Shown here one piece after another: positions 3,301 to 22,231 of a stretch of DNA of 34,500 bases. Position 1 is the first letter of the stretch. Each line of letters opens with the position of its first letter. Under the pieces are notes generated by a model. The model searched no databases. It had not been told where the DNA came from and saw only the letters and a program-made list of their open reading frames with translations. Source of the stretch: Salinivirgaceae bacterium (lineage in GTDB: Bacteria > Bacteroidota > Bacteroidia > Bacteroidales > SZUA-534); NCBI GenBank assembly GCA_016342715.1, contig JAEINW010000027.1, positions 1 through 34,500 of the forward strand, written 5' to 3'. The position numbers were made by a program, and so were the translations under genes.

Positions 3301-3383
3301 GTTCACCCATTGAAAGTGGCATCGATAACTCAGTTTATCCAATGCAAGCCATTTATACGATAGGAATGAAATTGACTTTTTGA
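372..3383 (+). CDS. susC: SusC-like TonB-dependent outer-membrane transporter
   Basis: Outer-membrane channel for TonB-driven import of oligosaccharides, working as a lid-and-barrel pair with the SusD protein encoded next. The 1003-residue length is normal for the family. A signal peptide (to about residue 22, ending ITAQ) is followed by a carboxypeptidase-D-regulatory-like domain (about 23-108), the SusC box region with VVVIGYGTMK (about 105-115), the plug domain (about 115-230, with YVVDG and ANGVILVTTKKG) and a long beta-barrel ending in aromatic Phe (GMKLTF). It is the first gene of the locus, 69 bases before the preferred SusD start. The substrate cannot be read from this protein; the GH144/GH94/GH3 genes downstream suggest beta-1,2-glucan oligosaccharides. 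Confident in the family; the substrate is inferred. Confidence 0.96.
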   Translation: MSKKLLLILLFFISTPFIITAQVFNIKGSVTDEQKNPLPGVTIHIKGTTEGAITDFDGNFTMNVPKDGVLIFSMVGMESKELPILNQNPVIVILAEDVTQLGEVVVIGYGTMKSKDLTSPIVSIKGDELSKQVASNPMQALQGKVAGVQIINSGKPGGESTVKIRGVGSIGDYAKPLYVVDGVFVDNIDFLSSNDIESLTVLKDASSAAIYGVRAANGVILVTTKKGYSEVPIINYSGYVGLQVPVNIMPMATKDQYIELYNKANTNTTGFVPKDPNAYPASTDWYKELVRTAITNSHNLDVSGASEKTSYSFGVNYYFQEGIMDAKNDYERVNLRARIDQKINDRIKVGFNTVYSNYNKQIPNDGSAFFSAYVNPPVYSIYDETNTEAYPIKFGAPQTYGYGNQYGNPVAAAYYYDNIEKGYKFLLNGSIELNLIEDKLSFKTSYNQDLNNWDNRNYMPEFYVGGSQGVRKSSLTKSFGNSSNTIFDNLLTFHDQNGSHSYTFLLGQSTRVQRLSKLFGSAIDVPGFDDASKYLSTGSYKDRNAWDGGDDFPYLYHGLSYFGRATYNYSDKYLASFTFRADGSSKYQEKWGYFPSLGLGWVLTKEDFLQNASMLQFLKLRGSWGLLGNDNIPSNSAVTLGTSGAESSGIFGDQLVDGVGAQTVIQNYLQWEVVDEFDFGIDFVMLHNKLSGGLDYYRRVTHNVVFKAPIATGGGVADLLANNGDVLNTGIELNLNWNDKINNDWSYHTGMNLTTIHNEVLALEGREYIPSGFVRGNYTKRTQVGQPIGSFYGYEIDGVYASESEALQDPVSQTIKDKGFFKYKDQNGDNVIDDKDKVFLGSSTPWLIAGIDFGMEYKQFDFSLSLQGQLGNKILNAKRMNRDIFVDGNYDQDFYDNYWTKDNKSDTYPSAEAYNSSFTQQANDFFVEDGSYIRIQNVQIGYTTKNIKYIQSLRLYASAQRPFTLFSYNGFTPEIGGSPIESGIDNSVYPMQAIYTIGMKLTF

Positions 3384-3452
3384 TAAAAAATTAGATACAA
3401 AGAGATGAGACATAATACACAAAACTTCAAAAAAGTACTAACTAATATAACT

Positions 3453-4943
3453 ATGAAAGCATCAATCAAATATTTACCATTTTTGTTGACAGGATTATTA
3501 TTAGTCGGTTGTGAAGACTTTTTAGATGTTCGTACCGAAGGGAGTCTTCCTACCACAGGTATCGACTATACCAAATCAGAAAATACTTTTAAACCGGTTA
3601 GTGCAGCCTATGCCAAATTGCGAAATTCTGGAGCTCATGTTTTTCCTTATATAGGTATGTTCGAAATTGCTGCCGATAATGCTGATAAAGGCAGTTCGCC
3701 CGACGATAATCCTACCATGGAGGAACTGGATAATTTAAGCTTTACATCCAGCAATGGCTTAATAAATGAATTATGGAGTGCTTATTTTGATATTGTGAGC
3801 GGCGCCAATTATGCCATCTACCAAATGCCTTTATATGAGGATGCCCAACTCAATAGCGCAGATAAATTGTATGCAAGGCAATGCCAAGGTGAAGCCAAAG
3901 TTATTCGGGCATATGCATATTTTAACTTAACCCGGGCTTTTGGAAACGTTCCAATAATTGACACTATTTTAAGCTCCGATCAACTGGCAAACGTTAAACA
4001 ATCAAATACCGAACAACTATATGCATTTATAGAAAAAGACCTGCGTGAGGCTATTGAAGTTTTACCCAATAGTTACATAGCTGATTGGGACGGTCGCATT
4101 AACAAATACACGGCGATGGCGATAAAAGCTAAAGTCCATTTTTATACCAATGAATGGGATTCAGTTGCCTCTCTCACCGATCAAATCATTGCCTCTGGAC
4201 AGTATGGATTATTGTCAACATTTCGAGATGTTTTTAGTGTGGATGGTGAAAACAGCAGAGAATCGCTATTTGAAATTCAAAGTTCTACTTTGGGAAAAAC
4301 AACTGGCGATATGACCTATTTAGAATATGGCTTCGTTCAAGGACCAAGAGGAAATTCACCCAGCAATATGCAGGGTTGGGGATTTTGTACTCCAAGCCAA
4401 AGTCTGCTTGATTTCTTTACGCAACGCGGAGAAACCATCAGGTCGGCCACCACTTTACTTTACCGAGGAACCAAAACGCCCGAAGGTGACAGTATTAAAG
4501 TATCTTGTACTAATCCAGTATATAACGGAAAAGTCTACACACCCAGTGCATACAATAAATGGAATTACAATGGCTATGGTTTTGACCTTAATGTACACAT
4601 AATTCGTTATTCCGATGTCCTGTTAATGTTTGCCGAAGCATTGGTTAATGGCGCTTCGGTGCATATTACTTCTGGACTGAATGCTTCCACAGCCATCAAC
4701 CAAGTTAGGTCTAGAGTTGAATTGGACAATATTGGGAATCCTACCTTACAGGAAATATGGGACGAAAGACGGGCTGAACTTGCCATGGAAGAAGATCGGT
4801 ATTTCGATTTGATACGAACTGGTCAGGCTGCCACAGTATTGCAAAGTAAAGGTTTTATAAGCGGTAAACACGAATTGTACCCCATTCCTTCGGCGCAAAT
4901 GCAACTCAATACAAATCTTATTCAAAACAGTGGATACAATTAA
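3453..4943 (+). CDS. susD: SusD-like surface glycan-binding lipoprotein (RagB/SusD family)
   Basis: Partner of the SusC transporter that binds glycan at the cell surface. The reading frame is open from 3405, but the Met at 3453 is preferred because it starts a clean lipoprotein signal (MKASIKYLPFLLTGLLLVGC, lipidated Cys20) followed by EDF. The mature protein has the SusD hallmarks: an N-terminal TPR-like region with RAYAYFNLTRAFGNVP, and a C-terminal block with IWDERRAELAMEEDRYFDLIRTG followed by a terminal LYPIPSAQMQLN segment. Length (496 aa) is normal. It lies between SusC and the LamG lipoprotein gene, the standard order for these loci. Confidence 0.96.
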   Translation: MKASIKYLPFLLTGLLLVGCEDFLDVRTEGSLPTTGIDYTKSENTFKPVSAAYAKLRNSGAHVFPYIGMFEIAADNADKGSSPDDNPTMEELDNLSFTSSNGLINELWSAYFDIVSGANYAIYQMPLYEDAQLNSADKLYARQCQGEAKVIRAYAYFNLTRAFGNVPIIDTILSSDQLANVKQSNTEQLYAFIEKDLREAIEVLPNSYIADWDGRINKYTAMAIKAKVHFYTNEWDSVASLTDQIIASGQYGLLSTFRDVFSVDGENSRESLFEIQSSTLGKTTGDMTYLEYGFVQGPRGNSPSNMQGWGFCTPSQSLLDFFTQRGETIRSATTLLYRGTKTPEGDSIKVSCTNPVYNGKVYTPSAYNKWNYNGYGFDLNVHIIRYSDVLLMFAEALVNGASVHITSGLNASTAINQVRSRVELDNIGNPTLQEIWDERRAELAMEEDRYFDLIRTGQAATVLQSKGFISGKHELYPIPSAQMQLNTNLIQNSGYN

Positions 4944-4980
4944 TAATTTATTACTCGAATCAACACTTAAATCTAAAATT

Positions 4981-5922
4981 ATGAAAAAATCATTTAAAGT
5001 AATTAGTGCATTCTTATTTGGAGCAATGCTCGTAAGTAGCCTAATAATAACTTCATGTAAAGAAGATGAAACTTCTCCTGACCCTAATGCTGGAAAAACG
5101 GATCCGAGTACCATTGCTCCAACAAACCTAGTAGCCTATTTCCCATTCGAAGACAATGGAACTGATAAAATCAGTGCAATAACCCCCAGCAATACCGCCA
5201 CCACAACAGGAACCTTTGCTACGGGACGACGCGGAAAAGCGTTTCAAGGGGCAACTGACAAGAATTCAGGCTTACTTTACACCTTGCCCACCGACAGCAA
5301 ACTGAAAACACTCAAAGCATTCAGTTTTTCTGTATGGTTAAAGCAAATTCCCAATACATTGGAAACTACCGATGCCCCAGAACAAATGGTTTTTCATTTA
5401 GACGGGAAGGGTGACTGGATTTGGGGTAACCTCTTCTTATTACAGCATAGGAATTGGCCCGAAGGTGCGACAGAAAAAGAACAAAACTATGCTGAAATGG
5501 ACTGCTACTTCTGGAAAGATGATGCCATCGCATGGAAGGGACAACGCGGTAGCGGCTGGTATGTGGATGTAACAGCTCCACAATGGCGTCTTATTACCTG
5601 TACATACGACAACGTAACTTCAACTTTCCATTCCTATGTGAATGGAGTGCACGTAACCGCTTTTGATGGCACTGAGTATATGGGCGTGAATCGTTGGCAA
5701 GCTGATGGAGAGACTACACCACTTGGCGATTTGAAGTTTAATAGTCCGGAGAAATTTGCTATTGGTGCATGGTGCGACCGTCTTGCAGGTACTGCTTTGG
5801 AGGCAGATGCTTGGGCGTCGCCTTTCAAAGGCTTAATCGACGAACTTCGCATTTACGATAGAGCTTTAACAGACACTGAAGTAAAAGCATTATACGATGC
5901 TGAAATAACTTGGGTAGAATAA
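4981..5922 (+). CDS. LamG/concanavalin A-like surface lipoprotein, probable glycan-binding protein
   Basis: The frame is open from 4930, but the start at 4981 is chosen because it gives a lipoprotein signal (MKKSFKVISAFLFGAMLVSS followed by LIITSC and acidic KEDE, the usual surface-export context). The rest (313 aa in all) is one concanavalin A-like/LamG sandwich: it opens with LVAYFPFEDNGTDK, has FSFSVWLK and HSYVNGVHV strands, and closes with the family-typical GLIDELRIYDRALTDTEV. No catalytic motif is visible. Its position right after SusD matches the surface glycan-binding protein slot of these loci, so a binding role on the polysaccharide is inferred. A hairpin terminator follows directly. 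Confidence 0.85.
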   Translation: MKKSFKVISAFLFGAMLVSSLIITSCKEDETSPDPNAGKTDPSTIAPTNLVAYFPFEDNGTDKISAITPSNTATTTGTFATGRRGKAFQGATDKNSGLLYTLPTDSKLKTLKAFSFSVWLKQIPNTLETTDAPEQMVFHLDGKGDWIWGNLFLLQHRNWPEGATEKEQNYAEMDCYFWKDDAIAWKGQRGSGWYVDVTAPQWRLITCTYDNVTSTFHSYVNGVHVTAFDGTEYMGVNRWQADGETTPLGDLKFNSPEKFAIGAWCDRLAGTALEADAWASPFKGLIDELRIYDRALTDTEVKALYDAEITWVE

Positions 5923-5993: not shown

Positions 5994-7649
5994 ATGAAAC
6001 TATTCCTGCCTTTTTTATTGATTACAAGCCTCTTTTTGTCTTGTTGCCAAGAGGACGATCCAATCAATCCCATACCGATAAATGCGTTTGTTGAATCAGT
6101 ATACATAAACCAAAGGCTGGTGAACAACAATCAAAAAATATATAACATTCCTACCGATTCTGTTGTTATTCAAATTAACTTTTCAACGCTCATCGATGCA
6201 ACGCAAAATAATCCTCAAAAATGCTTTATTAGCAACGGTGTTGGAACCGATTTTACCATTATTCCTACAACTGACAACAAGCAATTTATATTTAAAATCA
6301 ATCCCAAGCTAAACTTTTTTTCGGATTACAAACTTTACATTCTTGATGGTGAGTATCTTGGAGTTAAATTAATTGATCCCCACAAGTATACCTTTACTAC
6401 CCAATTAGATTCAACGCCTAAATTTCCCATCATTTCTGATGATAGCCTGCTTACTCTGATACAAAAACAAACCTTCAACTACTTTTGGGATTATGCTCAT
6501 CCTGTTAGTGGACTTGCAAGGGAGCGATTAGGATCTGGCGATGTGATAACATCAGGGGGCAGTGGGTTTGGCCTAATGTCCATTTTAGTAGGCATGGAAC
6601 GTGGCTTTATAACACATCAGGAAGGATATGAACGCCTCAATAAAATTGTCACCTTTTTAAATAACACTGATACTGAAAAATTTCATGGAGCTTTTCCCCA
6701 TTGGTTAAATGGTTCTACAGGTAAGGTTATCCCATTTGGAACGAAAGATAATGGGGCTGATTTAGTAGAAACTTCCTATCTAATGCAAGGACTTTTGACA
6801 GTACGTGAATATTTTAAAAATGGTTCCGCCGAGGAACAGCAATTGTGTGAAACCATTACCCTCTTATGGGAAAATGTGGAATGGAGCTGGTTCCGCCGTG
6901 GAGATCAAAATGTATTGTATTGGCATTGGTCACCTAATTACGGTTGGGATATGAATATGCAAATACAAGGTTGGAGCGAATGCCTTATTACTTATGTATT
7001 GGCTGCCAGTTCACCAACATATAGTATTCCCAAAGTAGTTTATGATGAAGGATGGGCACGAAATGGCGCATTCCCCATGAAAAACGGGAAAACATTTTAT
7101 GGCATTACCTTGCCGTTAAGTTGGGACTATGGCGGTCCGCTATTTTGGGCGCATTATTCTTTTTTAGGACTTGACCCGCAGAATCTTTCCGATCAATATG
7201 CCAATTACTGGGAGCAGAATGTAGCCCATAGTTCAATAAATTTTGAATACTGTAAAGATAATCCTAAAAATTATGTTGGTTACAGTGCCGATTGCTGGGG
7301 GTTAACCGCTTGCGATGTCCCGAACGGATACTCCGCCAACGAACCCAACAACGATAATGGCGTAATTGCGCCTACCGCTGCAATTTCGTCAATTGCATAT
7401 ACTCCCGATGAATCAATGGCTGCCATTCGATATTTCTACTATATTCTGGGCGATAAACTTTGGGGTGAATATGGGTTTTACGACGCATTCGATGCTACTG
7501 AAAACTGGTGGGCCAGTTCTTATTTAGCCATCGACCAAGGTCCTGAAATATGCATGATTGAGAATTACCGGACAGCTTTATTATGGAATTTATTTATGTC
7601 GGCTCCTGAAACTCAGGCAGGACTTGATAAATTAGGTTTTACTTATTAA
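5994..7649 (+). CDS. GH144-type endo-beta-1,2-glucanase lipoprotein
   Basis: Predicted to cut beta-1,2-glucan internally at the cell surface. The lipoprotein signal runs to Cys17 (FLSC) and is followed by QEDD, a surface-export-like acidic stretch. Residues about 28-137 look like an Ig-like (Big_5 type) domain. Residues about 150-551 are the (alpha/alpha)6 'glucoamylase'/GH144 domain, with FNYFWDYAHP near its start, WHWSPNYGWDM, and a typical end (FYDAFDATENWW, AIDQGPEICMIENYRTALLWN). Acidic residues D256 and E259 (GADLVET) and E329 (GWSEC) are spaced as in characterised GH144 endo-beta-1,2-glucanase. It differs from the second GH144-type protein (9704-11101), which lacks the Asp of this DxxE pair. 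Family is confident; specificity follows from family and context. Confidence 0.88.
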   Translation: MKLFLPFLLITSLFLSCCQEDDPINPIPINAFVESVYINQRLVNNNQKIYNIPTDSVVIQINFSTLIDATQNNPQKCFISNGVGTDFTIIPTTDNKQFIFKINPKLNFFSDYKLYILDGEYLGVKLIDPHKYTFTTQLDSTPKFPIISDDSLLTLIQKQTFNYFWDYAHPVSGLARERLGSGDVITSGGSGFGLMSILVGMERGFITHQEGYERLNKIVTFLNNTDTEKFHGAFPHWLNGSTGKVIPFGTKDNGADLVETSYLMQGLLTVREYFKNGSAEEQQLCETITLLWENVEWSWFRRGDQNVLYWHWSPNYGWDMNMQIQGWSECLITYVLAASSPTYSIPKVVYDEGWARNGAFPMKNGKTFYGITLPLSWDYGGPLFWAHYSFLGLDPQNLSDQYANYWEQNVAHSSINFEYCKDNPKNYVGYSADCWGLTACDVPNGYSANEPNNDNGVIAPTAAISSIAYTPDESMAAIRYFYYILGDKLWGEYGFYDAFDATENWWASSYLAIDQGPEICMIENYRTALLWNLFMSAPETQAGLDKLGFTY

Positions 7650-9148: not shown

Positions 9149-9151
9149 TTT

Positions 9152-9187
9152 AAAAACCCCTGTAAGTCTTAATTTGCAGGGGTTTTT
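9152..9187 (+). terminator. Rho-independent terminator, possibly bidirectional
   Basis: AAAAACCCCTG (9152-9162) pairs perfectly with CAGGGGTTTTT (9177-9187) over a 14-base loop, directly after the type IX-secreted protein gene. The A-run and T-run flanks would let it work on both strands. Confidence 0.85.
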
Positions 9188-9703: not shown

Positions 9704-11101
9704 ATGAAAAATATATTAAAAATTAACCTACTGTTCTTGCTAACCCTAATTATTAGCAATTCGAGTTGTACAAAACCTAAGGAAACGGTGTATGAATCAT
9801 TCGGTAAAATCAATTATCCGGCTACATCCGACGAACTTGCGATGCTCGACTCCATTCAATACAAAACATTTCTTTATTTTTTAAATGAACACCATCCCGA
9901 AAAAGGTATTGTAAAAGACCGTGCTGCGGCCTGGGCTCCTGCCAGCATTGCAGCAACAGGTTTTGGAATTCCATCCTTCGCCATTGGCGTTGAACGGGAA
10001 TGGATTACGCGTGAGAAGGCTGCAGATATAACACTAAAGATGCTAAGATTTTTCACCAACTCAGTTCAAAGCGCTGATACCAATGTTACTGGTTATAAAG
10101 GATTTTATTATCACTTTTTGCGCATGGATTCAGGTACCCGAGAATGGAAATGCGAACTTTCAACCATCGATACTGGCATTCTAATGATGGGCTTCCTCTT
10201 TGCCCGCAACTATTACAACCTTGATAATGAAACTGAAAAGGAGATTCGTTTATTGACCGATGCTATTCTAGGTAAAATGGAGTGGGATTTTTTCCAATTG
10301 CCTGAAACAGCAAAGCATCCAAATACCATCTCCATGGCCTGGTCGCCTGAAGAAGGATTGCTAGACTACGGTTGGAGCGGTTATAACGAAGGTCTGTTTC
10401 TTTATGTGCTGGCTGCTGGTACCGGAATGAACGATGTTAAAACAAGTTACGATTCATGGTTATCTACCTACAAATGGAACACACCTTACGAAGGCCTTTC
10501 GCACGTTGCTTTTCCTCCATTATTTGGACATCAGTTTTCGCAAGCCTTTATCGATTTTCGTGGATTGGGCGATAAATACATGATGAAAAAAGGAATTGAC
10601 TACTTTGAAAACTCAAGGCGTGCTACCTATGTACAGCGCCAATATGCCATAGAAAACCCAAAAGGTTGGATTGGTTATGATTCGCTCTGCTGGGGAGTAA
10701 CAGCCAGTGACGGATGTGGTGACACATACAATTTCGATGATAAGAAATTTGAGGGTTATGCCGGCAGAGGAACCAGTGGCCCGGATTATACCATCGCAGA
10801 GGACGGAACAATTGCCCCTTATGGTTCAATTTCATCGTTAGCCTTTGCTCCCGAAATAGTTTTTCCAACTATTAGGTCATTAAATGAAAAGTACGGCACA
10901 AAAATTTGGGGCAAATACGGTTATTATGATTCTTTTAATCTTACTGCTAAATGGGTAGATAATGATTTTATAGGTATTGACGAAGGCCCAATGTTAATAA
11001 TGATTGAAAATTTCAGAACAGGACTGGTTTGGAATTACGTGATGAAAGATCCTATAATCCAGAAAGGCTTGAATACACTTGGCTTTGAATATTTAAAATA
11101 A
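9704..11101 (+). CDS. Second GH144-type (PF10091) beta-1,2-glucan-active lipoprotein
   Basis: 465 residues: a hydrophobic signal ending NSSC (probable lipidated Cys22) and then only the (alpha/alpha)6 domain, without the Ig-like domain of the first copy. The family ending is clear (KYGYYDSFNLTAKW, IGIDEGPMLIMIENFRTGLVWN). Where the first GH144 has GADLVET, this one has LSTIDTG, so the Asp is Ser153 and the Glu is Asp156; the later Glu is kept (E229 in GYNEG). A different mode of action is plausible, for example an exo-type sophorose-releasing enzyme as known within GH144, or a related family. It starts a tight run of genes: the next begins 9 bases downstream. Family confident, activity inferred. 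Confidence 0.8.
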   Translation: MKNILKINLLFLLTLIISNSSCTKPKETVYESFGKINYPATSDELAMLDSIQYKTFLYFLNEHHPEKGIVKDRAAAWAPASIAATGFGIPSFAIGVEREWITREKAADITLKMLRFFTNSVQSADTNVTGYKGFYYHFLRMDSGTREWKCELSTIDTGILMMGFLFARNYYNLDNETEKEIRLLTDAILGKMEWDFFQLPETAKHPNTISMAWSPEEGLLDYGWSGYNEGLFLYVLAAGTGMNDVKTSYDSWLSTYKWNTPYEGLSHVAFPPLFGHQFSQAFIDFRGLGDKYMMKKGIDYFENSRRATYVQRQYAIENPKGWIGYDSLCWGVTASDGCGDTYNFDDKKFEGYAGRGTSGPDYTIAEDGTIAPYGSISSLAFAPEIVFPTIRSLNEKYGTKIWGKYGYYDSFNLTAKWVDNDFIGIDEGPMLIMIENFRTGLVWNYVMKDPIIQKGLNTLGFEYLK

Positions 11102-11110
11102 TAATTATTT

Positions 11111-14100
11111 ATGAGAAACATTATCAAATCATCGATAGCAATTTTAATATTGGTTTTAGCTAGCCCTTTGGTTTATACTCAAACTAAAACGCTCGATGAT
11201 TTCGAGAACAAAAACGGATGGTATTTCATCCAATCTGATGGGGTTAAACTGAACCTAAGCAACGAAAAAGGCTTAACCGGTAATGCAATACGTTTCGATT
11301 ATGATTTCACCAAAGGAACCGGTTACGGAGGAATTCAGAAACTTTTCCCCATTGACCTACCCGATAATTACGAATTCACTTTTTATGTTAAGGCCGAATC
11401 TCCTTCAAATAACTTCGAAATAAAATTTATTGACAGCAGTGGTGACAATGTTTGGTGGGTAAGCAATCGAAACTATGACTTTCCTGCGGAATGGAAAAAA
11501 ATCAGCATAAAAAAAAGACATATCCAATTTGCTTGGGGACCCACAAGCGATCAAAATTTAAAACGAATCGACCGGATTGAATTTACCATTGCCTCGTTTG
11601 TAGGTGGTAAAGGAACTATTTGGCTTGATAATTTCAAGTTTGAACCTCTGCCACCTGAAAGCCAAACACACCAACCGCCTTCAATAACGGCTTCGTCATC
11701 TTTAAAAAAACATTTGCCTAATTTTATTGCCGATACCCTAAATGAAACTTATTGGCAAAGTGGTAAAAGCAAGGATCAATATCTTATTATTGACTTTAAA
11801 AACCGTAGAGAATTTGGAGGATTGCAGATTAATTGGCTGGAAAATAATTGTGCCCAGAGTTATGATATCCTTCTTTCGGGCGATGCTAAAAATTGGGAGA
11901 ATGTCTATTCCATTCAATCCAATCAAAGTGATTTCAGTTTTATAAGGTTGCCCGAAGCCGAAACTAGGTATCTTAAGTTAAAGTTTAAAGAAAACAATAA
12001 TACCAGTGGAATTGGCATAAGGGAGATAAGGTTTCTGAATATAAAAGAATCGTTAACAAAAAATGATTTTCTGATTTATAAAGCAAAGAATTCCCGCCAG
12101 GGAAATTATCCCAGATACTTTTCAGAACAAGCTTCGTATTGGACCATTTCCGGTGTAAACAACGATGCTAAGGAAGCCATGATAAACGAAGATGGAATGG
12201 TAGAAGTGGATAAAGGTCTTTTCTCCATCGAACCCATGATAAAAATGGGCGATTCACTTTTTAACTGGCACAATGTTCAATCCGTTCAATCGCTTGGTGA
12301 ACCAGGTCAAAACAAAACTTTTGATTTTACACCAACGCTTACTTGGAATTGCAACAATCTTAAATTCGAAACCTCAGTTACCGCAAGTGGCGAAGCCAAT
12401 AAAAATTCACAGCTTAATGTCCGCTATTCATTCACAAACAACTCGGATCACCCAAAAGATTTTGAATTTTACCTACTAATTCGACCTTACCAAGTTAATC
12501 CATACTACCAGTTTCTGAATTTTACCGGTGGTGCAGGAAAAATAAAATCCATAAAAGAAGAAGATGGCAATTATTTGTCAGTCGATGATAAAGTGGTGCT
12601 GTTTGAAAAAAAATACGATGCCTTTGGCGCAAGTAATTCCAATGAAGGGAATATGGTTGAATTTATCCGTGAAGGTAAGATCCCTGAAAATAAATCAGCC
12701 ACTGATAAAAACGGTATGGCTAATGGTGTTATAAAATACTCATTGCACCTGAATGCCCATGAGAACCTTAAATTATATGTTGCCGTTCCTTTTTATGAAA
12801 AAAATTCAGGGAACACCGCCAGTGCAAATTCTGATATTTCAAAGGAATTTGCTAAATCATCAGAATTCTGGAGCTCAAAAACAGGACACATCAATTTTAA
12901 TTTGCCATCATCGGCTCACCGAATTGTAAATACCTATAAGTCAAATCTGGCCTACATACTTATTAACAGAGACAAAGCAGGCATTCAGCCCGGTTCCCGT
13001 TCGTACGAACGCAGCTGGATACGCGATGGAGCCTTAACTTCGTCTGCCCTTTTGAAATCGGGTATTGTTCCTGAAGTAAAAGAATTTATTAATTGGTACA
13101 CAGGCTTCCAGTACGAAAATGGCAAAGTTCCCTGTGTTGTAGACCTGAGAGGTCCCGATCCGGTTCCTGAAAACGACAGTCATGGAGAATTGATTTACCT
13201 GATTCGTGAATATTTTAACTTCACGCATGATACTGTATTTCTACAAGCAAAAAATGCCTATGTATTAAAATCGGTAGCTTACATTGAATCACTGATTGCC
13301 GAGCGATCAACTGATTATTACAAAAATGGAAACGACAGCGTTCGTGCCTTTTATGGGTTGGTTCCGGAATCAATCAGCCACGAAGGATATTCTGCCAAAC
13401 CCATGCACTCCTATTGGGATAATTTCTTTACCATGAAAGGCTTGAAAGATGCCGCAGAAATTCAAAAAATTCTGGGTGAAAATGAATCCTATGAAAGAAT
13501 TCAAAAAGTTAGCGATACGTTTAAAGACAACCTTTACAATTCGCTTGAACTTGCCATGAAAAATAAAAATATTTCTTACTTGCCCGGGTGTGCTGAGTTA
13601 GGTGATTTTGATGCCACATCAACCACTATAGCATTAAGCCCTTGTAACGAACTAAATAACCTACCCAAACCTCAGGTTTACAACACGTTTGATAAGTATT
13701 ATGAATTCTTTAAAAACCGGCGAGATGATAAAATTGACTGGATTAATTATACGCCTTACGAAAATCGCCTGATTGGTTCATTTATTATTTTAGATCAACC
13801 CGAAAGAGCTCATGAACTGATTGAATTCTTCTTAAACGATCAACGCCCCCAGGGATGGAACCATTGGGCAGAAGTGGTATGGAAAGATTACAGAACTCCC
13901 AAATATATTGGTGATATGCCTCACACCTGGGTTGGCAGTGATTTTATTAATGCCATCCGCTCCATGTTTGTTTACGAAAATGAGTATGATCAATCGCTTG
14001 TTTTGGCATCGGCATTATACCAGGATTGGATTGATGCGCCTCAGGGAATGTCAGTTGAAAATTTGCCTACCTATTATGGTGAAATCTCCTATTCCATAAA

Positions 14101-14293
14101 GAAAGAAGATAGCCATTATCGTTTTTTAATATACGGAGATGTGAAAATTCCGTCGAACGGCATAAAAATAAAAAATTTCAACAGTTCAAGAGTTCCTAAA
14201 AAAGTAACTATAAACTCAAAAGAAATAAAAGACTTTAATGAAAAGGAAATTAGCATTAAGGAGTTTCCGGCAGAAGTAATCATTTACTACTAA
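11111..14293 (+). CDS. Modular secreted protein: CBM-like + F5/8-C (discoidin) + (alpha/alpha)6 domain, unassigned glycosidase
   Basis: 1060 residues with a type I signal peptide (to about residue 23, no lipobox), so probably periplasmic or secreted. Order of parts: a CBM11-like sandwich (about 26-180, LDDFENKNGWYF … GTIWLDNFKF), a discoidin/F5-8-C domain (about 190-310, DTLNETYWQSGKSKDQYLI … GIREIRFLN), a beta-sandwich linker region (about 330-600) and a helical toroid (about 600-1000) with YERSWIRDGALTSS (about 631-645), HGELIYLIREY (about 690), GWNHWAEVVW (about 915) and HTWVGSDFINAIRSM (about 935-950). The toroid resembles inverting (alpha/alpha)6 glycosidases (GH15/GH37/GH63/GH78-like) in general form, but I cannot assign a CAZy family. 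The gene lies between the second GH144 and the sugar symporter, arguing for a step in beta-1,2-glucan breakdown. Catalytic residues are not identified; Asp/Glu in RDGA and HGE are candidates. Confidence 0.75.
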   Translation: MRNIIKSSIAILILVLASPLVYTQTKTLDDFENKNGWYFIQSDGVKLNLSNEKGLTGNAIRFDYDFTKGTGYGGIQKLFPIDLPDNYEFTFYVKAESPSNNFEIKFIDSSGDNVWWVSNRNYDFPAEWKKISIKKRHIQFAWGPTSDQNLKRIDRIEFTIASFVGGKGTIWLDNFKFEPLPPESQTHQPPSITASSSLKKHLPNFIADTLNETYWQSGKSKDQYLIIDFKNRREFGGLQINWLENNCAQSYDILLSGDAKNWENVYSIQSNQSDFSFIRLPEAETRYLKLKFKENNNTSGIGIREIRFLNIKESLTKNDFLIYKAKNSRQGNYPRYFSEQASYWTISGVNNDAKEAMINEDGMVEVDKGLFSIEPMIKMGDSLFNWHNVQSVQSLGEPGQNKTFDFTPTLTWNCNNLKFETSVTASGEANKNSQLNVRYSFTNNSDHPKDFEFYLLIRPYQVNPYYQFLNFTGGAGKIKSIKEEDGNYLSVDDKVVLFEKKYDAFGASNSNEGNMVEFIREGKIPENKSATDKNGMANGVIKYSLHLNAHENLKLYVAVPFYEKNSGNTASANSDISKEFAKSSEFWSSKTGHINFNLPSSAHRIVNTYKSNLAYILINRDKAGIQPGSRSYERSWIRDGALTSSALLKSGIVPEVKEFINWYTGFQYENGKVPCVVDLRGPDPVPENDSHGELIYLIREYFNFTHDTVFLQAKNAYVLKSVAYIESLIAERSTDYYKNGNDSVRAFYGLVPESISHEGYSAKPMHSYWDNFFTMKGLKDAAEIQKILGENESYERIQKVSDTFKDNLYNSLELAMKNKNISYLPGCAELGDFDATSTTIALSPCNELNNLPKPQVYNTFDKYYEFFKNRRDDKIDWINYTPYENRLIGSFIILDQPERAHELIEFFLNDQRPQGWNHWAEVVWKDYRTPKYIGDMPHTWVGSDFINAIRSMFVYENEYDQSLVLASALYQDWIDAPQGMSVENLPTYYGEISYSIKKEDSHYRFLIYGDVKIPSNGIKIKNFNSSRVPKKVTINSKEIKDFNEKEISIKEFPAEVIIYY

Positions 14294-14316: not shown

Positions 14317-16362
14317 ATGAAAGAAATAGTTACTGGTGGCAAGAATATAACTACCGATGATAAAATACCTTTTTCGCAATTAGCAGCTTACGGTGCCGGA
14401 GGCATTATTCCTATTGCCTTGTTCAATGTAGCCGGAATCCTTGTGGGATTGATGGGTAATATAAGCCTTGGATTAAGCGCCTTCTGGCTTGGTGCTATTT
14501 TGATTGTTCCCCGTTTGTGGGATGCCATTTCAGATCCTATCATCGGTCATCTTTCGGATAATACCCGTACCCGCTGGGGACGTCGTCGTCCATACTTACT
14601 GCTTGGTGGAATAGCCGTTGCTCTTTCGTTCGTTGTTATCTGGTGGATACCAAAGGGAGCGCTGGTGCATAGTTGGTTTCCCACCGATTCGGGCTTCCAT
14701 GTGTTTCAGCTTGTGTATATCCTTATTTCCCTGCTTATATTTTTTACCGCTGTAACTGTATTCGAAATTCCTCATGGGGCTTTGGGAATGGAGATGACAA
14801 CCGACTATCACGAGCGAACCCGTCTGTTCAGTGCCAAGAGTTTTGTTGGAAACCTTTTTGCCATGAGCACCCCCTGGCTTTTTGCCCTTGCCAGCATGGA
14901 AATCTTTAAAGGCCCAGGAGGCAATGAAGTGGATGGTATGCGCTATGTATCCATTCTTATTGCTGCTGTTCTTATTCCGCTATCGTTCTGGTGGTTTTTT
15001 AAATTACGTGAACCCGGATTCAAAAAAGTGGCCACTCAGAAAAAAACGCCATTTTGGGAAGACATGAAACACACGGCCAGCAACCGAAATTTTATCATGC
15101 TTACCCTGACCATATTCACACTAGCGATGGGATTTAATTTTGTGAGTTTGATCGGATCATATATTCCTATATTCTTTATTTATGGAGGTGATAAAGTTGC
15201 AGGAGCCACACTATTGGGTATCAATGGTACCATTTGGGCCATCACTGGTGTGCTGGCCGTTTTTCCGCTCAACTGGATAAGTCCAAGGTTGGGTAAACGA
15301 AAAACTCTTACTATCGCTATCTTACTTATGGTTCTGGCACAGGTATCAAAGATTGTATGCTACAATCCAGCCCATCCTTATCTGGTTCTTTTACCCACAA
15401 TTCTGCTTTCAACTGGTATGTTATTTTTCTTTACGCTGGGTTCTTCCATGGTTGGTGATATTTGTGATGAAGATGAATTGAAGACGGGTCATCGCTCAGA
15501 AGGCAGCTTCTATTCCGTCTTTTGGTGGTTTATAAAACTGGGAACCGCACTCGCTAGCCTGGTTGCCGGTGCATTAATCGTATATACTCTGTTCGACGAA
15601 ACACAGGTCACCAAAGTTGACAGTCTGCAAGGCAATATCGGTAAACTTAGGAGTAAGATCGAATACTGGCAAGGCGATGAGGGCCTCAAAGGAACAAGCA
15701 CAACCTTGCTCGAAAATACAAAAGAAACAACTAATGAAGCAATCGATGAATCGAAACTATATTTAGTCGTCCTAGAAAAGGAAATTGTTAAAAAACAGAA
15801 CGAAACCTATCAAAACATTACCAAATACAAAACCCAGAGGAATGAAAAGCTTTCAGAGGCTATTTCAGTAACAAAATCCATCATAGCCGATTTGGAAAAA
15901 TTTAATCTTCAATTAGTCAACACAAATGCATCCACAGAAGATTCTTTAACTAAAAGAATTAGAACCGCTGCTATTCCCCTGTTCCTTAAACAAGACCTTG
16001 TAAAAGCAAGGCTGAATTCGTTTGAACTCTTGTCGCACCTTGAAGGACAATCTCTTAAAACAAAGAAAAGCAAGGAACACTATATAAAAATTCTTGAAAA
16101 CAGTGGAGGTGTTGATATTAGGCTTGCAAACATAAACACATATATGCCTTTAGAATTTCTTGATAATGAATTAAATACCATTGAAACTGAAATTGTGCAG
16201 CTCACCCAGCAATCGCCTTATACGCTATTAATGATGCGAGTGGTTGAGATTGGACTGCCTTTGTTTTTAAGTATTTTTTCAATATTCTTTATCATGAGGT
16301 ACAAACTCACAGAGAAGCGATCGCACGAAATCAAGAAGCTTCTTGAGCAAAAAAATCTCTAA
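14317..16362 (+). CDS. GPH-family sugar:cation symporter with large extra periplasmic segment
   Basis: Inner-membrane importer of the glycoside-pentoside-hexuronide branch of the major facilitator superfamily. The family signature is strong: LWDAISDPIIGHLSDNTRTR followed by WGRRRPYLL (about residues 68-95), then HGALGMEMTTDYHERTRL (about 153-170) and GDICDEDELKTGHRSEGSFY (about 378-397). GPH proteins are usually 450-500 residues; this one has 681. The surplus is a charged, helix-rich, coiled-coil-like insert (about 428-632) between the penultimate (FWWFIKLGTALASLVAGALI) and last (VVEIGLPLFLSIFSIFFIM) membrane segments. With the usual 12-helix, N-in topology the insert faces the periplasm. It probably imports beta-1,2-gluco-oligosaccharides for the GH94 and GH35 enzymes encoded just downstream. 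Confidence 0.88.
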   Translation: MKEIVTGGKNITTDDKIPFSQLAAYGAGGIIPIALFNVAGILVGLMGNISLGLSAFWLGAILIVPRLWDAISDPIIGHLSDNTRTRWGRRRPYLLLGGIAVALSFVVIWWIPKGALVHSWFPTDSGFHVFQLVYILISLLIFFTAVTVFEIPHGALGMEMTTDYHERTRLFSAKSFVGNLFAMSTPWLFALASMEIFKGPGGNEVDGMRYVSILIAAVLIPLSFWWFFKLREPGFKKVATQKKTPFWEDMKHTASNRNFIMLTLTIFTLAMGFNFVSLIGSYIPIFFIYGGDKVAGATLLGINGTIWAITGVLAVFPLNWISPRLGKRKTLTIAILLMVLAQVSKIVCYNPAHPYLVLLPTILLSTGMLFFFTLGSSMVGDICDEDELKTGHRSEGSFYSVFWWFIKLGTALASLVAGALIVYTLFDETQVTKVDSLQGNIGKLRSKIEYWQGDEGLKGTSTTLLENTKETTNEAIDESKLYLVVLEKEIVKKQNETYQNITKYKTQRNEKLSEAISVTKSIIADLEKFNLQLVNTNASTEDSLTKRIRTAAIPLFLKQDLVKARLNSFELLSHLEGQSLKTKKSKEHYIKILENSGGVDIRLANINTYMPLEFLDNELNTIETEIVQLTQQSPYTLLMMRVVEIGLPLFLSIFSIFFIMRYKLTEKRSHEIKKLLEQKNL

Positions 16363-16420: not shown

Positions 16421-18853
16421 ATGACATTTAGCATCAAAGAAAATAATTTTTACCTTAACAATAAAAAGGTATTTCTTAATTCAGGGGAAATCCACTATTT
16501 CAGAATCAAGCGTGAACTTTGGGATAAGCACCTTGAAGCAGCAAAGGAAGCCGGACTTACGACCATAAGCACCTATGTTCCATGGGCATTTCACGAATCG
16601 GTGGAGGGTGTTTTCGATTTTGATGGTACGTCGTGTCCTGAACGGGATCTGAAAGGATGGCTTAGTCGTTGTCAAGCCCACGGATTGCATTGCATTGTAA
16701 AACCGGGACCTTTTATCCTTGCTGAATATCGGGGAGCAGGATTGCCCGATTGGTTCATGGAACAATATGGCAGCGAAGTTAAGATGCGCAATAGCAAAGG
16801 TGAAATTGTCCCAAGTGAGGGGGTCAGCCTGTTTAATCAAAAATATCTGGAGAAAGTAACACTTTGGTACGATAACATCATGCCATTTATAAGCCAACGC
16901 CAACTATCAAACGATGGACCAATTATCATGATGCAGATATGTAATGAGATAGGTGTATTCCCATGGTTGGCGCATCAGGGAGATTACAACAATAATGTTA
17001 AGGATCGGTTCATTGTCTATTTATCGAAAAAATTTTCCGACCTTAAAGAACTGAACAGCCTTTGGGGAACCAATTATTCTGATTTTTCTCATGTTGAACT
17101 TCCTCCCGATGGAAAGCTTCCTTATGCATCAAAACAAGATCGTGGTCGCGATTATGAATGGCACATGTTCTGGAGAACTTACTACGGTGATTACTTAAAG
17201 ATGCTTACTGCTATGGCTCGGGAACGCGGAGTTAGCGTGCCATTATATCATAACCTTCCGGGCTGGATTTATGGTAGTGGTTATGAGTTTCCAGTGAATA
17301 TCACCATGTATGAAGATTTGTTCGAAGATAAGAGTGATATTATTTTTGGAGTCGATCATATTCCTGAATTTATGTCGTATCGTAACATGCACGACGATAG
17401 GATTATAAACGATATTACTTATGCCATGCAGGGCAATAAACCGCTGTTTGCCGCTGAATTCCAGAGTGGCTCACGCGAGTATCATGTGGTAACCAATCCG
17501 CGCGAAATGGAACTCTTTTACAAAGCGAGTGTTGCCAATGGACTTACCGGCTGGAATTATTATATGTTTTCGCAGGGACGCAATACAAGACACACCGGAT
17601 ATTCCGGCTCAACATTTTACTGGTTTAACCCGCTTACGCCCGAAGGCGAGCGCACCAGTGCTTACCCGCTGGTGAAACGGATGAATAAAATCATTAAAAC
17701 CTCCGAAAGCCTTATTGTTGATGCAAAACGTAAAGCAGAGGTATGTGTTCTTTTCTATCCTCCGTATTATGCCACAGAACTGGAACGTCCTGTTTCAGGA
17801 GCATGTGAACTTCAGTTCTCGGCTTCTGCCATTCGGAGACCTGCCTATTTCGACGGCTTATTAAAGGTTTTACAAATCCTTAATATCGACTACAATATGA
17901 TGGACTTAAGCAAGACTACGGCAGATAAATTGCAACACTACAAACAGGTCTGGGCCTTTAGTACCGATGAAATGAATGCTGCCGACCAACAAACCATTGT
18001 TAATTATACAAACGCAGGAGGTAGTATGGTAATTTTTCCATATCTCCCCGATCGCGAAATGTCGCAAAAACCCTGCACAATCATTCGCGATGCCCTTTCA
18101 ATACATCCATCGGGGAGTGAAATCATCGATTCTCCACTAATAGATGTTTATGACCTTAAGGATATCAAATGTGCCAATCCGCAAAGTATTTTTTCAGAAG
18201 AATCATTAGTTGATGCCGAAATAATTGCACGCAACATAAATGGTTCTGCTTGTGGGTTCACAAAAAAACTTGGAAATGGGTCGCTAACACATCTTGGAAC
18301 CTGGATTGGATTCGACACCGAAGGACAAAAACCGGTTTATGAAGCACTGCTAAACCAATCATCTGCAAAACTTCGACAGGCATCAACCAACAACGAAAAT
18401 ATTGCTGTACGCGAACGCTTCACAAGTGAGCAGGCTGCTGTGCTTTTTGTTGCCAATTACTACAACGAAGAACAAACATGCAACGCTAGTTATACACATC
18501 CTGAAACAGAAGAAACAATCAGCATACCCTATTCACAAGATGTGATGCTCATGCCGGCTTTATACGCCATTTTAACTCCGGTGTGTATGAAAGTTGCCCC
18601 CGGATTAAAAATTTTACACAGCACTTCTGACCTTCTAAATATTGAAGAAAAAAATGGACAACTTATCATTACTCTTTATGGAGATCGCGATCTCCCTGGA
18701 GAAATAGTTTTTGAAGGTACTGAAGTACAAAAAATTAGTACTGCAATAATGGATGGAGAAAACCTGAAAATTCAACACATCAAAAAAAATGTGGTTGTTG
18801 CATATACCCACAAACATAAAGTTGAAATGACTCTAAATGTATCTATTGGCTAA
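16421..18853 (+). CDS. GH35-family cytosolic enzyme, possible beta-1,2-glucosyltransferase
   Basis: 810 residues with no signal peptide, so cytosolic. The N-terminal TIM barrel is GH35: it opens VFLNSGEIHYFRIKRELW, has ISTYVPWAFHESVEGVFDF, the acid/base segment MQICNEIG (Glu176) and the nucleophile segment FAAEFQSGS (Glu346). After the barrel (about 430-600) comes a Rossmann-like segment (VCVLFYPPYYATE … GGSMVIFPYLP), then small beta domains. GH35 members are mostly beta-galactosidases, but a GH35 enzyme from Ignavibacterium album is an established transglycosylase acting on beta-1,2-gluco-oligosaccharides, and this gene sits between a sugar importer and a GH94 phosphorylase. A beta-1,2-glucosyltransferase or glucosidase is therefore as likely as a galactosidase. 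It lies in the same tight gene run (58 and 30 bases to neighbours). Confidence 0.82.
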   Translation: MTFSIKENNFYLNNKKVFLNSGEIHYFRIKRELWDKHLEAAKEAGLTTISTYVPWAFHESVEGVFDFDGTSCPERDLKGWLSRCQAHGLHCIVKPGPFILAEYRGAGLPDWFMEQYGSEVKMRNSKGEIVPSEGVSLFNQKYLEKVTLWYDNIMPFISQRQLSNDGPIIMMQICNEIGVFPWLAHQGDYNNNVKDRFIVYLSKKFSDLKELNSLWGTNYSDFSHVELPPDGKLPYASKQDRGRDYEWHMFWRTYYGDYLKMLTAMARERGVSVPLYHNLPGWIYGSGYEFPVNITMYEDLFEDKSDIIFGVDHIPEFMSYRNMHDDRIINDITYAMQGNKPLFAAEFQSGSREYHVVTNPREMELFYKASVANGLTGWNYYMFSQGRNTRHTGYSGSTFYWFNPLTPEGERTSAYPLVKRMNKIIKTSESLIVDAKRKAEVCVLFYPPYYATELERPVSGACELQFSASAIRRPAYFDGLLKVLQILNIDYNMMDLSKTTADKLQHYKQVWAFSTDEMNAADQQTIVNYTNAGGSMVIFPYLPDREMSQKPCTIIRDALSIHPSGSEIIDSPLIDVYDLKDIKCANPQSIFSEESLVDAEIIARNINGSACGFTKKLGNGSLTHLGTWIGFDTEGQKPVYEALLNQSSAKLRQASTNNENIAVRERFTSEQAAVLFVANYYNEEQTCNASYTHPETEETISIPYSQDVMLMPALYAILTPVCMKVAPGLKILHSTSDLLNIEEKNGQLIITLYGDRDLPGEIVFEGTEVQKISTAIMDGENLKIQHIKKNVVVAYTHKHKVEMTLNVSIG

Positions 18854-18883: not shown

Positions 18884-21800
18884 ATGAAAATCAAAAATAA
18901 ATCAGGCCTTTGCTTCACATTTCTTGAGAATGGTTCCATCGAACATATCGAGGTTGAACCCATAAAGATAAGCCTTAAATCAACTACCTCATTTTCAAAA
19001 CCTGGCACCAATCTTTTTCTAAGAAAAAGAACAAACCCCATTGAATTCAAAGCCCTTTTGGGACCTGAAAGCAACAGTGTTTTCCAGATAAAGGACAATG
19101 TATTTATTGCTCAGGGCAGTTGGGATGGTCTTGAATATACCTGCGTTTTACAACTTTCACCTAAAAGTAAAACTTGGCAATGGCGTGTTGATATCACCAA
19201 TAATTCTGATAAAAAAGTTGAACTCGATTTAATTTATCTGCAGGATATCGGCTTAAAGCAAATAAACAATGGTTTGGTGAATGAATATTATGTAAGCCAG
19301 TATTTAGAAAGGCTAATTTTTGAAGACCAAAAACTCGGCTCTGTTATTTGTTGCAGGCAAAATATGAAAGAATCGGTGGGAAATCCATGGTTGATGATCG
19401 CATGTAAGAACAGTGCCGTAGCCGGAAGTACCGATGGTATGCAATTTTATGGTAATACCTGCCGTGAAACCGGGATTCCCGAAGGATTGCTTACTGAAAC
19501 ATTAGGAGGAAATTATGCCGGTGAATCATCGGTTCTCGCTTTACAGGAAAAACCTTTTCAACTTGAATCCGGTGCAAGACATACCAGTGTTTTTGTTGCG
19601 ACCTACTTGCCCAATCATCCCGAAGCCTCATCAACGGAAGATTTGCATCAGCTAACTGACCTTTTTTATGAATTTGATGATGGGATTAAATTATCGTTTA
19701 AAGAGAAAATGACTTCTCCTGTTAAAAACAGTTTCAACACGGCTACCTTTCTGCCTATCGATGATCTCACCAATGAGGAACTTAAGGGGTTTTTTGGAGA
19801 AATAAGACGTCATATTGAAGAGGAAAACGGCCATCTGCTTTCATTTTTCTGCAATGAGAATAACCATGTAGTGTTGCATGCAAAAGAAACAAAGGTTGAC
19901 CGTCCACATGGTCATATTATGCAAGCCAAAGTAGGGTTTACCCCCGACGAAAACGTTGTCTCCACAACCTCATTTGCTTCTGGTGTTTTTAACTCGCATC
20001 TTACTCAGGGCAACACCAATTTTAATACCTTGCTTTCCGTTTGCACCAGCCAGTTCAACCTTTCTGCGCAATCCGGTCAACGAATCTTTGTTGAAATAGA
20101 GGGTCGGCAATATCTGCTTGGAGTTCCTTCTGCCTATGAAATTGGATTAAACCACTGCCGGTGGATATATAAACACGGTAATCATTGTTTCCAAATCCGT
20201 ACATGGACATCACATTCAACACCGCAAATCCATATGGATTTTAAGGTTATCAGTGGCAACAATGTTAACCTGTTAATTACCCACGATTTTGATGAACTCA
20301 ATGGCTGGAAAATTAACCCTGGCAGCACTGCAGATGAATATGTAGCTATACCTAAAGAGAATAGCATGATTAAGGAAAAATTTACTGAGCCACAATTCAG
20401 GATCCGGGTCAACAGCCTTGATGCCAATTATAAAGATTGTGGGGATGAAGTGCTCTATTCTAACAATATTTTTGAGAAAGAGGGCTCTTTATTTGTCCTT
20501 GCTGTAAAGGAAACATCCAATTTCTTCATGAGTTTTATTGGTGAAGTATGTTCCACCTGGGAGATATCAACACCTAAAAATGCCGATGAACAATGGCTTG
20601 CCGATTTTCAGCATGCACAAACCTATTGGCATGACATGAGTTTAAACCTTTCGTTGCAAAGCGATCAGAAGGACTTGGCAGCCATAAAGGAAATACTTCC
20701 CTGGTATGCCATGAATGCTATTACCCACTTTTTAACGCCCTACGGTTTAGAACAATTTAGTGGAGCTGCCTGGGGTACGCGCGATGTATCGCAAGGCCCC
20801 ATTGATTTACTGCTGACCATGGAAAAATATGAGGAAGCAAAGCACCTTTTGTGCATCTTATTTTCAAATCAGAATCATGATGGCGGTTGGCCACAGTGGT
20901 GGATGTTCGACAGTTATTCAAAAATCCGTGCAGGCGATTCCCATGGTGATGTTTTTTATTGGGTTTTGATAGCACTAAGTGATTACATTAAAGTTACCGG
21001 CGATCTCAACATATTGGATGAGTTGCTTCCCTTTTATAATGAAAGCAATAATACGGCTAATGAAGTCAAATCCATCAGCGAACATGTGGACAGGCTCATC
21101 CAGATGATTGTGGATTCTTTTTTATCTGGCACCGCCTTAGTTCCATTCGGTGGCGGCGATTGGAATGACTCTCTGCAACCGGTAAGTAAACAATTGGCCG
21201 AACGCATGATTTCGAGCTGGACCGTTGAAATGAATTTTCAAGCCTTCAATCAGTATCATTTGGTTTATGAATTAATTGGTGATGTTGTAAAAGCAAATGA
21301 ATTAAAGGAAATATGTGCAAGAATCAGAAGCGATTTTAACAAACATCTTGTAAAAGATGGCGTTGTTGCAGGCTATGGTTTGGTTAACGATGATAAAACC
21401 ATCAGTGTACTGCTTCACCCGAGTGATACCAAAACCGGCATTCATTATAGTATTCTGCCAATGAATCGTGGAATAATAAGCGAAATATTTACAAAAGAAC
21501 AGGCTCAACATCACCAGAATATTATCGAACAACACCTAAAAGGCCCTGATGGTGCCCGCTTAATGGATCGTCCTCTAAAATATACTGGAGGCATTCAAAG
21601 CATTTTTCAACGTGCCGAAAGCAGTACATTCTTTGGGCGCGAAATCGGTTTAATGTACGTTCATGAGCACATTCGTTACGCTGAATCACAAGCTCGCATT
21701 GGCCATGCCGACGCATTCATTAAGGCGCTTCGACAGGCAATTCCGGTGGCTTACAAAGAAATTGTACCGTCCGGTGATATCCGCCAGGCAAATTGCTATT

Positions 21801-22231
21801 ACAGCAGCTCCGATGTTATTTTCGAAAGCCGATATGAAGCCGACGAACACTACGATAAAATTAAAACAGGCACCATTGCGTTAAAAGGTGGATGGCGGGT
21901 TTATAGCAGTGGACCTGGTATTTATGTGAGCATGATTGTAACACGTCTGCTTGGTTTGCGCATTGAATTCGATAATGTAATCATCGATCCCGTTATTCCT
22001 CTTGCGATGGATGGTTTTTCTGCATCACTAAAATTCATGGGTCGTAATGTAAGGTTCAATTATCATATAAAAGAAAGTTGTTTCAGTCCAAAAGCGGTTA
22101 CTGTAAATGGAAGTGCTTTAAAATTCCTTCATCAGGAAAACAAATATCGCCAAGGTGGAGCGCTTATAAAAGCGGACTCTTTTTTAAGTCTTTTAAACCA
22201 AAAGGAAAATGCGATTGACATAAGCATGTAA
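18884..22231 (+). CDS. GH94 phosphorylase, probable 1,2-beta-oligoglucan phosphorylase
   Basis: 1115 residues with no signal peptide, so cytosolic. N-terminal beta-sandwich domains are followed by the GH94 (alpha/alpha)6 barrel (about 590-1020), with WGTRDVSQGPIDLL (about 628-641), GGWPQWW, the catalytic-acid segment GGGDWNDSL (Asp759/Asp762) and SAS-type ending motifs such as YYSSSDVIFESRYEADEHY and GGWRVYSSGPGIY (phosphate-binding region). Cellobiose and chitobiose phosphorylases are about 800 residues; characterised 1,2-beta-oligoglucan phosphorylase (the Listeria innocua type) is about 1100, matching this protein. Predicted reaction: beta-1,2-oligoglucan plus phosphate gives a shorter oligoglucan plus alpha-glucose 1-phosphate, saving ATP. 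GH144 and GH3 neighbours support the linkage. Confidence 0.88.
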   Translation: MKIKNKSGLCFTFLENGSIEHIEVEPIKISLKSTTSFSKPGTNLFLRKRTNPIEFKALLGPESNSVFQIKDNVFIAQGSWDGLEYTCVLQLSPKSKTWQWRVDITNNSDKKVELDLIYLQDIGLKQINNGLVNEYYVSQYLERLIFEDQKLGSVICCRQNMKESVGNPWLMIACKNSAVAGSTDGMQFYGNTCRETGIPEGLLTETLGGNYAGESSVLALQEKPFQLESGARHTSVFVATYLPNHPEASSTEDLHQLTDLFYEFDDGIKLSFKEKMTSPVKNSFNTATFLPIDDLTNEELKGFFGEIRRHIEEENGHLLSFFCNENNHVVLHAKETKVDRPHGHIMQAKVGFTPDENVVSTTSFASGVFNSHLTQGNTNFNTLLSVCTSQFNLSAQSGQRIFVEIEGRQYLLGVPSAYEIGLNHCRWIYKHGNHCFQIRTWTSHSTPQIHMDFKVISGNNVNLLITHDFDELNGWKINPGSTADEYVAIPKENSMIKEKFTEPQFRIRVNSLDANYKDCGDEVLYSNNIFEKEGSLFVLAVKETSNFFMSFIGEVCSTWEISTPKNADEQWLADFQHAQTYWHDMSLNLSLQSDQKDLAAIKEILPWYAMNAITHFLTPYGLEQFSGAAWGTRDVSQGPIDLLLTMEKYEEAKHLLCILFSNQNHDGGWPQWWMFDSYSKIRAGDSHGDVFYWVLIALSDYIKVTGDLNILDELLPFYNESNNTANEVKSISEHVDRLIQMIVDSFLSGTALVPFGGGDWNDSLQPVSKQLAERMISSWTVEMNFQAFNQYHLVYELIGDVVKANELKEICARIRSDFNKHLVKDGVVAGYGLVNDDKTISVLLHPSDTKTGIHYSILPMNRGIISEIFTKEQAQHHQNIIEQHLKGPDGARLMDRPLKYTGGIQSIFQRAESSTFFGREIGLMYVHEHIRYAESQARIGHADAFIKALRQAIPVAYKEIVPSGDIRQANCYYSSSDVIFESRYEADEHYDKIKTGTIALKGGWRVYSSGPGIYVSMIVTRLLGLRIEFDNVIIDPVIPLAMDGFSASLKFMGRNVRFNYHIKESCFSPKAVTVNGSALKFLHQENKYRQGGALIKADSFLSLLNQKENAIDISM

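Follow-up and report, generated by a model that had tools for sequence, protein, structure and literature searches.

A candidate GH15-like glycoside hydrolase family linked to GH144 in putative bacterial beta-1,2-glucan loci

The locus and its genes

The window, i.e., the whole stretch of 34,500 nucleotides analysed here, contains an open reading frame with an ATG start that encodes the 1060-aa protein called TOR in what follows. The genes are arranged in the order SusC, SusD, LamG lipoprotein, GH144a, T9SS-tailed protein, a hairpin with a 555-bp gap, and GH144b; from there on, the order is GH144b, TOR, GPH symporter, GH35, GH94, GH3, and a regulator (Table 1). The coding region of TOR is kept end to end in its homologues, most of which have ∼1047−1069 aa, so that TOR is a genuine gene and not a chance reading frame, and the three motifs quoted in the original prediction are all present in it. 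The source genome assembly holds a single copy of TOR, and its only GH144 genes are GH144a and GH144b.

Because GH35, GH94, GH144a, and GH144b all match solved beta-1,2-glucan enzymes, the sequences make a strong case for the locus being a beta-1,2-glucan system. GH144a is closest to the endo-beta-1,2-glucanase group that includes 5gzh, and the nearest solved relative of GH144b is XCC2207/XcSGL (PMC12102758). As for the GH35 protein, it resembles IaSGT, a solved GH35 beta-1,2-glucosyltransferase (PMC8861115).

TOR had been expected to be co-transcribed with two GH144 genes. This holds for GH144b: TOR starts 9 bp past it, and the symporter follows 23 bp past TOR. It does not hold for GH144a, which is separated from GH144b by the T9SS-type gene, the terminator-like hairpin, and the 555-bp gap, so that only GH144b is clearly in the transcription unit of TOR. 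The hairpin was missed by the terminator scanner because its loop is long.

Other features of the window are worth recording. The T9SS-tailed protein (7793−9148, plus strand) has two near-identical repeats of ∼165 residues each, suggesting that a beta-sandwich-like unit, which possibly binds glycans, was duplicated recently within the protein, and its homologues occur in only a few related loci. The gap before GH144b holds a 107-bp GC-rich element (9343−9449), the last 40−50 bases of which recur at six further sites of the genome with 84−100% identity. Downstream of the regulator, five small ORFs (28374−33459, minus strand) mostly have no Pfam matches, and one of them encodes an HTH protein.

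Table 1. Features of the TOR locus, with positions in the window
Feature	Position	Strand	Evidence
SusC, SusD, LamG-domain lipoprotein	372..5922	+	
GH144a, CpSGL-like lipoprotein	5994..7649	+	PF10091 1.4e-74; 5gzh 7e-158
Terminator-like hairpin, then T-run, 3' of T9SS gene	9150..9186 (approx.)	+	read in sequence, AAAAACCCCTG...CAGGGGTTTTT
GH144b, XCC2207/XcSGL-like, lipoprotein-type signal, first gene of operon	9704..11101	+	PF10091 4e-69; best PDB match 8xul (XCC2207), E 4e-100
TOR, candidate GH15-like glycoside hydrolase, 1060 aa	11111..14293	+	ORF, models, profiles, conservation
Signal peptide without lipobox Cys, residues 1-23 approx.	11111..11179	+	inspection
CBM11-like beta-sandwich, residues 25-176	11183..11638	+	1v0a (endoglucanase H), phmmer E 1.4e-4
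F5/8 type C (discoidin) domain, residues 191-305	11681..12025	+	PF00754 E 9.9e-15
Beta-supersandwich, residues 331-590 approx.	12101..12880	+	DSSP of AlphaFold2 models; aligns with GH15 dextran dextrinase
(alpha/alpha)6 toroid, residues 600-957 approx.	12908..13981	+	DSSP, VIA-align
R638-D639, GH15-type -1 subsite Arg-Asp (RSWIRDGAL)	13022..13027	+	invariant in 79 homologues, common to GH15
E758, candidate general acid (SISHEGYS)	13382..13384	+	unchanged in all 79 homologues and in three proteobacterial relatives
E921, candidate general base (HWAEVVWKD...IGDMPHTW)	13871..13873	+	invariant; precedes G(D/N)xP motif common to GH15
GPH/MFS_2 symporter	14317..16362	+	PF13347 2.9e-68
GH35, IaSGT (beta-1,2-glucosyltransferase)-like, no signal peptide	16421..18853	+	7vkw E 1.8e-149
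GH94, 1,2-beta-oligoglucan phosphorylase (SOGP)-like	18884..22231	+	5h3z E 3.4e-191
GH3, beta-glucosidase-type lipoprotein	22291..24540	+	PF00933 2.5e-69
Reg_prop/Y_Y_Y/LuxR-type regulator	24713..27496	+	PF00196, PF07494

Domains, fold, and conserved residues of TOR

On inspection, the N-terminus of TOR (MRNIIKSSIAILILVLASPLVYTQ) is signal-peptide-like and has no lipobox Cys, while a lipobox-like Cys is found in SusD, GH144a, GH144b, and GH3 of the same window. TOR thus appears to be exported and not lipidated, as had been proposed, and its location is probably periplasmic. The two N-terminal binding-type domains that had been predicted are also supported. PF00754 scores 55.2 bits against a gathering cutoff of 28.2, and the likeness of the preceding domain to CBM11 is weak, with no Pfam CBM match. 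The Pfam scan found F5/8C as the sole domain of TOR, leaving supersandwich and toroid without any Pfam family; a TfoX_C match (E 0.05) was discarded as spurious. Searches with phmmer and hmmsearch of the toroid against PDB sequences returned nothing useful.

The fold was modeled with AlphaFold2, both at full length (pLDDT 84, pTM 0.84) and for the toroid part (pLDDT 85.5, pTM 0.90), and the model has the GH15 architecture, i.e., an N-terminal supersandwich and an (alpha/alpha)6 toroid. In VIA-align, the top PDB match of both models is the GH15 dextran dextrinase (Z 26.3 for full length, 27.6 for the toroid part), and next in the lists are GH15 glucoamylases and glucodextranase, GH65, GH116, GH63, GH78, and GH125. 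For the toroid part, the values are Z 27.6 with 559 residues aligned at 3.9 Å for 9ju0, Z 25.2 with 536 at 3.9 Å for 1lf6, and Z 24.8 with 553 at 4.0 Å for 1ug9, the GH15 glucoamylases giving Z of about 25 at 3.2−3.9 Å. As ranks within 1 Z count as tied, these lists show a superfamily with GH15 nearest. GH144 and GH162 are absent from them; this absence alone excludes nothing, hence the use of profile comparison.

With hhalign, TOR matches GH15 at 95% (E 3e-8) when all GH15 are pooled and at 97.5% (E 6e-12) when related families are merged in, while the comparison with TIGR01535-type glucoamylases alone is not significant. The values are 88−95% for GH94 and 0.1−0.3% for GH144. PF00723 (GH15) has no match at E≤0.1, and TIGR01577, of the alpha-acting GH15 type, matches weakly (22.3 bits against a cutoff of 820.7). 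PF10091 (GH144) does not match either and, together with the hhalign value, this places TOR outside GH144 and clan GH-S. PF17167 and PF06165 (GH94) are also without a match, and the profile−profile value of 88% indicates distant homology. By fold and profile, the toroid belongs to a GH15/GH94-like superfamily in which GH15 is nearest. The view that it fits no nameable family is accordingly not supported at the superfamily level, while its separation from GH144 is upheld; with regard to GH94, the separation is true of Pfam matches and not of the superfamily. A clear match to an existing family, which would have spoken against the original prediction, was not found for the toroid in Pfam.

GH15 (glucoamylase, glucodextranase, dextran dextrinase; PF00723) is the best structural match and, beyond supersandwich and toroid, it has in common with TOR a W-x-RD motif, a D-x-x-G helix, an (F/L)DA(S/T) motif, and a Glu that precedes a G(D/N)xP motif, which is itself followed by the last helix. 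However, TOR lacks the PF00723 match, has about 11−14% identity in structural alignments, carries the CBM11-like and F5/8C domains in front, and is found in a beta-1,2-glucan rather than an alpha-glucan locus. GH94 phosphorylases, including SOGP (PF17167), are alike in superfamily fold and beta-1,2-glucan pathway; TOR differs from them by having no GH94 Pfam match and by keeping a Glu where GH15 has its base, a position at which, to our knowledge, phosphorylases have none. GH144 and the rest of clan GH-S (GH144, 162, 192−194) share the (alpha/alpha)6 fold and the substrate system and are encoded nearby, but no sequence relation exists. Moreover, a GH-S enzyme consists of one (alpha/alpha)6 domain and has no supersandwich (PMC12102758).

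In 79 homologues with 34−100% identity, R638, D639, D689, E758, D770, D832, D834, E921, and D935 are invariant, and the same nine polar residues are kept in three proteobacterial relatives with 27−33% identity. R638-D639, E758, and E921 are located in regions matching the GH15 −1 subsite and acid/base, and their strict invariance removes the objection that the acidic pocket residues might not be conserved. E921 reproduces a GH15 feature: it comes a little ahead of the G(D/N)xP motif and the last toroid helix, where GH15 has its general base. As for the acid, the automatic alignment puts the GH15 residue at P752/E753 and not at E758, which lies in the loop before helix 6; because of this ambiguity, the exact acid is uncertain. 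E753, five residues before E758, is 99% conserved and is A or P in some homologues, and E758 is preferred as the candidate because E753 is not invariant. Motif by motif, TOR RSYERSWIRDGAL aligns with GH15 WDYRFCWIRDASM, ENDSHGELIYLI with QNDSYGYLMDVI, GDFDATSTTIAL with EVDASLLLM, and AEVVW...IGDMPHTWVGSDFINA with SEDLDF...LGNFPQAYSHLALIN.

Relatives of TOR and their association with GH144

GTDB genomes, scanned with a back-translated pattern, contain at least 537 relatives of TOR. The best 80 of these belong to Bacteroidota and Ignavibacteria, and outlying ones occur in Xanthomonas, Croceibacterium, and Methylosinus. The loci of these best 80, many of them incomplete, contain GH144b, GH35, and the symporter in 68 cases each and GH94 in 49; the operon core GH144-TOR-MFS-GH35-GH94 is kept in Bacteroidales. 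Nearly all complete near loci contain GH144, and the association extends to divergent homologues. Among 296 surveyed genomes of the phylum, TOR was present in 17 besides the window's own, with 34−54% identity to it, and GH144 was in the locus of all 17; the 13 loci encoding toroid proteins of more distant kinship all lacked it. Counted by genome, GH144 occurs in 18/18 with TOR and in 105/296 overall (hypergeometric p 2.9e-9, kinship ignored). The predicted association of TOR with GH144 is borne out by both near and divergent loci.

Outside the phylum, a Croceibacterium plasmid record has a TOR relative directly after GH144, and a Xanthomonas sacchari plasmid record has a TOR homologue near a GH144 orthologous to XCC2207. 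The latter homologue (L197, 11704−15156) is split over several frames in its record, which may reflect a pseudogene or a sequencing error. In a Methylosinus plasmid record (L199, 6457−11358), a TOR relative with no evident signal peptide is next to an SOGP-type protein and to a GH15 that matches PF00723, an arrangement that suggests a cytosolic version of the pathway. No GH144 or SOGP-type neighbor was seen in the record of the Methylocystis relative. In Croceibacterium, Methylosinus, and Methylocystis, these relatives (27−33% identity) are called "discoidin domain-containing protein" by PGAP, a name that covers the binding domain only and gives no function.

Two types of GH144 locus can be distinguished: one with GH3 and without TOR (L203−L242), and one with TOR, ABC/GPH import, and GH94, GH35, or GH2 (L145−L161). 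GH3 is found within about 10 kb in 31 of 40 GH144 loci lacking TOR, but no divergent TOR locus, of 17 compared, has it (for the non-Bacteroidia classes, Fisher 6e-6); full-length near TOR loci have GH94 in 31/34, GH35 in 32/34, and GH3 in 13/34. From these counts, TOR marks a second locus type that relies on import and on cytosolic or other finishers. The simpler idea that TOR replaces GH3 is weakened by the GH2 or GH94 enzymes carried by several divergent TOR loci. Given these enzymes, and the presence of both TOR and GH3 in the window's operon, TOR may cut a bond beyond the reach of the beta-specific finishers.

Possible activity of TOR

In Proteobacteria, beta-1,2-glucans serve as factors in symbiosis, virulence, and osmotic stress, and little is known of their recycling in nature. 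On account of its glucoamylase-type fold and paired acidic residues, the TOR family is probably a new enzyme family that helps bacteria to eat the beta-1,2-glucans of other bacteria. Considering the fold, superfamily, invariant residues, and tight GH144 linkage computed here, it is rather likely that TOR is a member of an uncatalogued GH family with GH15-like architecture, working with GH144 on these glucans. The best reading is of an anomer-inverting, exo-acting family dedicated to beta-1,2-glucans, where catalysis, inversion, and exo action are what we infer. The GH144 enzymes would first cut the glucan into oligosaccharides, and TOR, probably in the periplasm, would bind these via its CBM11-like and F5/8C domains, with the sugar of the nonreducing end in a −1 pocket whose wall includes R638-D639. 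As the acid, E758 would then protonate the leaving bond while E921, as the base, would activate water, so that glucose leaves in inverted form; what is left might be imported by the GPH symporter, with SOGP and the GH35 enzyme finishing the process in the cytosol.

Which bond is cut? Alpha and beta attack cannot be told apart from the fold, because GH94 also matches by profile, and alpha-linked glucose on beta-1,2-glucan is slightly favored over terminal beta-1,2-glucose. The originally suggested type of substrate, a substituted, branched, or cyclic beta-1,2-glucan, would fit these data. Tentatively, TOR could be an exo-alpha-glucosidase that removes the alpha-linked glucose of beta-1,2-glucans, e.g., at an alpha-1,6 link exposed after GH144 cleavage. 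The closest folds and the weak NCBIfam matches are those of alpha-acting GH15 enzymes, and TOR stays the same from locus to locus, whereas the set of beta-acting finishers (GH3, GH2, GH94, GH35) changes. XCC2207, the nearest match of the partner GH144b, comes from an organism that makes alpha-1,6-cyclised beta-1,2-glucohexadecaose (PMC11228985), and a TOR homologue occurs in the XCC2207-type cluster of X. sacchari, although this copy is the frame-broken one. With the GH15 resemblance and this Xanthomonas link, the alpha-1,6 bond of cyclised glucans becomes the natural candidate, by analogy; still, the absence of GH3 from divergent TOR loci is not what such an activity predicts. That absence would instead suit an inverting exo-beta-1,2-glucosidase, one that takes glucose from sophoro-oligosaccharides and stands in for GH3 at many loci, and the Methylosinus relative, which has no evident signal peptide, adjoins an SOGP-type protein whose expected end product is sophorose, in line with the release of Sop2 by an SOGP homologue (PMC8861115). 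Beta-acting GH94 is also in the superfamily of TOR. Nevertheless, TOR and GH3 occur together in the window operon and in 13/34 near loci, and the GH2 or GH94 of several divergent loci could do the same job. Further, the characterized hydrolases with a GH15-type acid/base pair that we know of act on alpha bonds, and the exo-beta activity is, on the whole, somewhat unlikely.

Perhaps the bond is neither of these two, a case about as probable as the alpha-linked one. TOR might remove a sugar other than glucose or other decorations, such as the beta-1,6-linked glucosyl branches on glucans of the enterobacterial type, and a particular decorated substrate would suit its two binding domains and unusually many invariant polar residues; this is unlikely, as the operon core revealed no decoration-specific neighbor. 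It is very improbable that TOR has no catalytic role and serves for binding or as a scaffold, its toroid being a relic: the N-terminal binding domains would agree with such a role, but conservation is strongest in the toroid pocket motifs, both Glu included, across 34−100% identity.

For the preferred reading, TOR as a hydrolase working with GH144, the chances appear evenly balanced that it represents a new multi-phylum GH family supplying a missing beta-1,2-glucan step, as the first alpha-1,6 remover or the first inverting GH15-like beta-1,2-glucosidase. "New" denotes here a candidate status, set by Pfam and NCBIfam, neither of which has a family covering the toroid, and not by CAZy. No description of TOR was found in the searched literature, outside which lie subscription papers and preprints, nor within the searched beta-1,2-glucan papers PMC8861115, PMC12102758, PMC11842490, PMC11228985, and PMC11739564. 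The family has more than 500 relatives in sequenced genomes, is tied to GH144, and takes its present name from a binding domain alone, which makes it a promising candidate new CAZy family, and it would explain the second, GH3-independent type of beta-1,2-glucan locus. Should TOR turn out to cut the alpha-1,6 link, it could also serve in the analysis of the phytopathogen glucans bearing that link.

Beyond TOR, GH15-like toroid proteins form three additional sets: X1 (L162−L166, L168, L173), X2 (L167, L170, L174), and X3 (L169, L171). They have about 720−870 aa, no above-cutoff Pfam match among the families scanned, and no GH144 linkage, and they are homologous to TOR by profile (98−100%).
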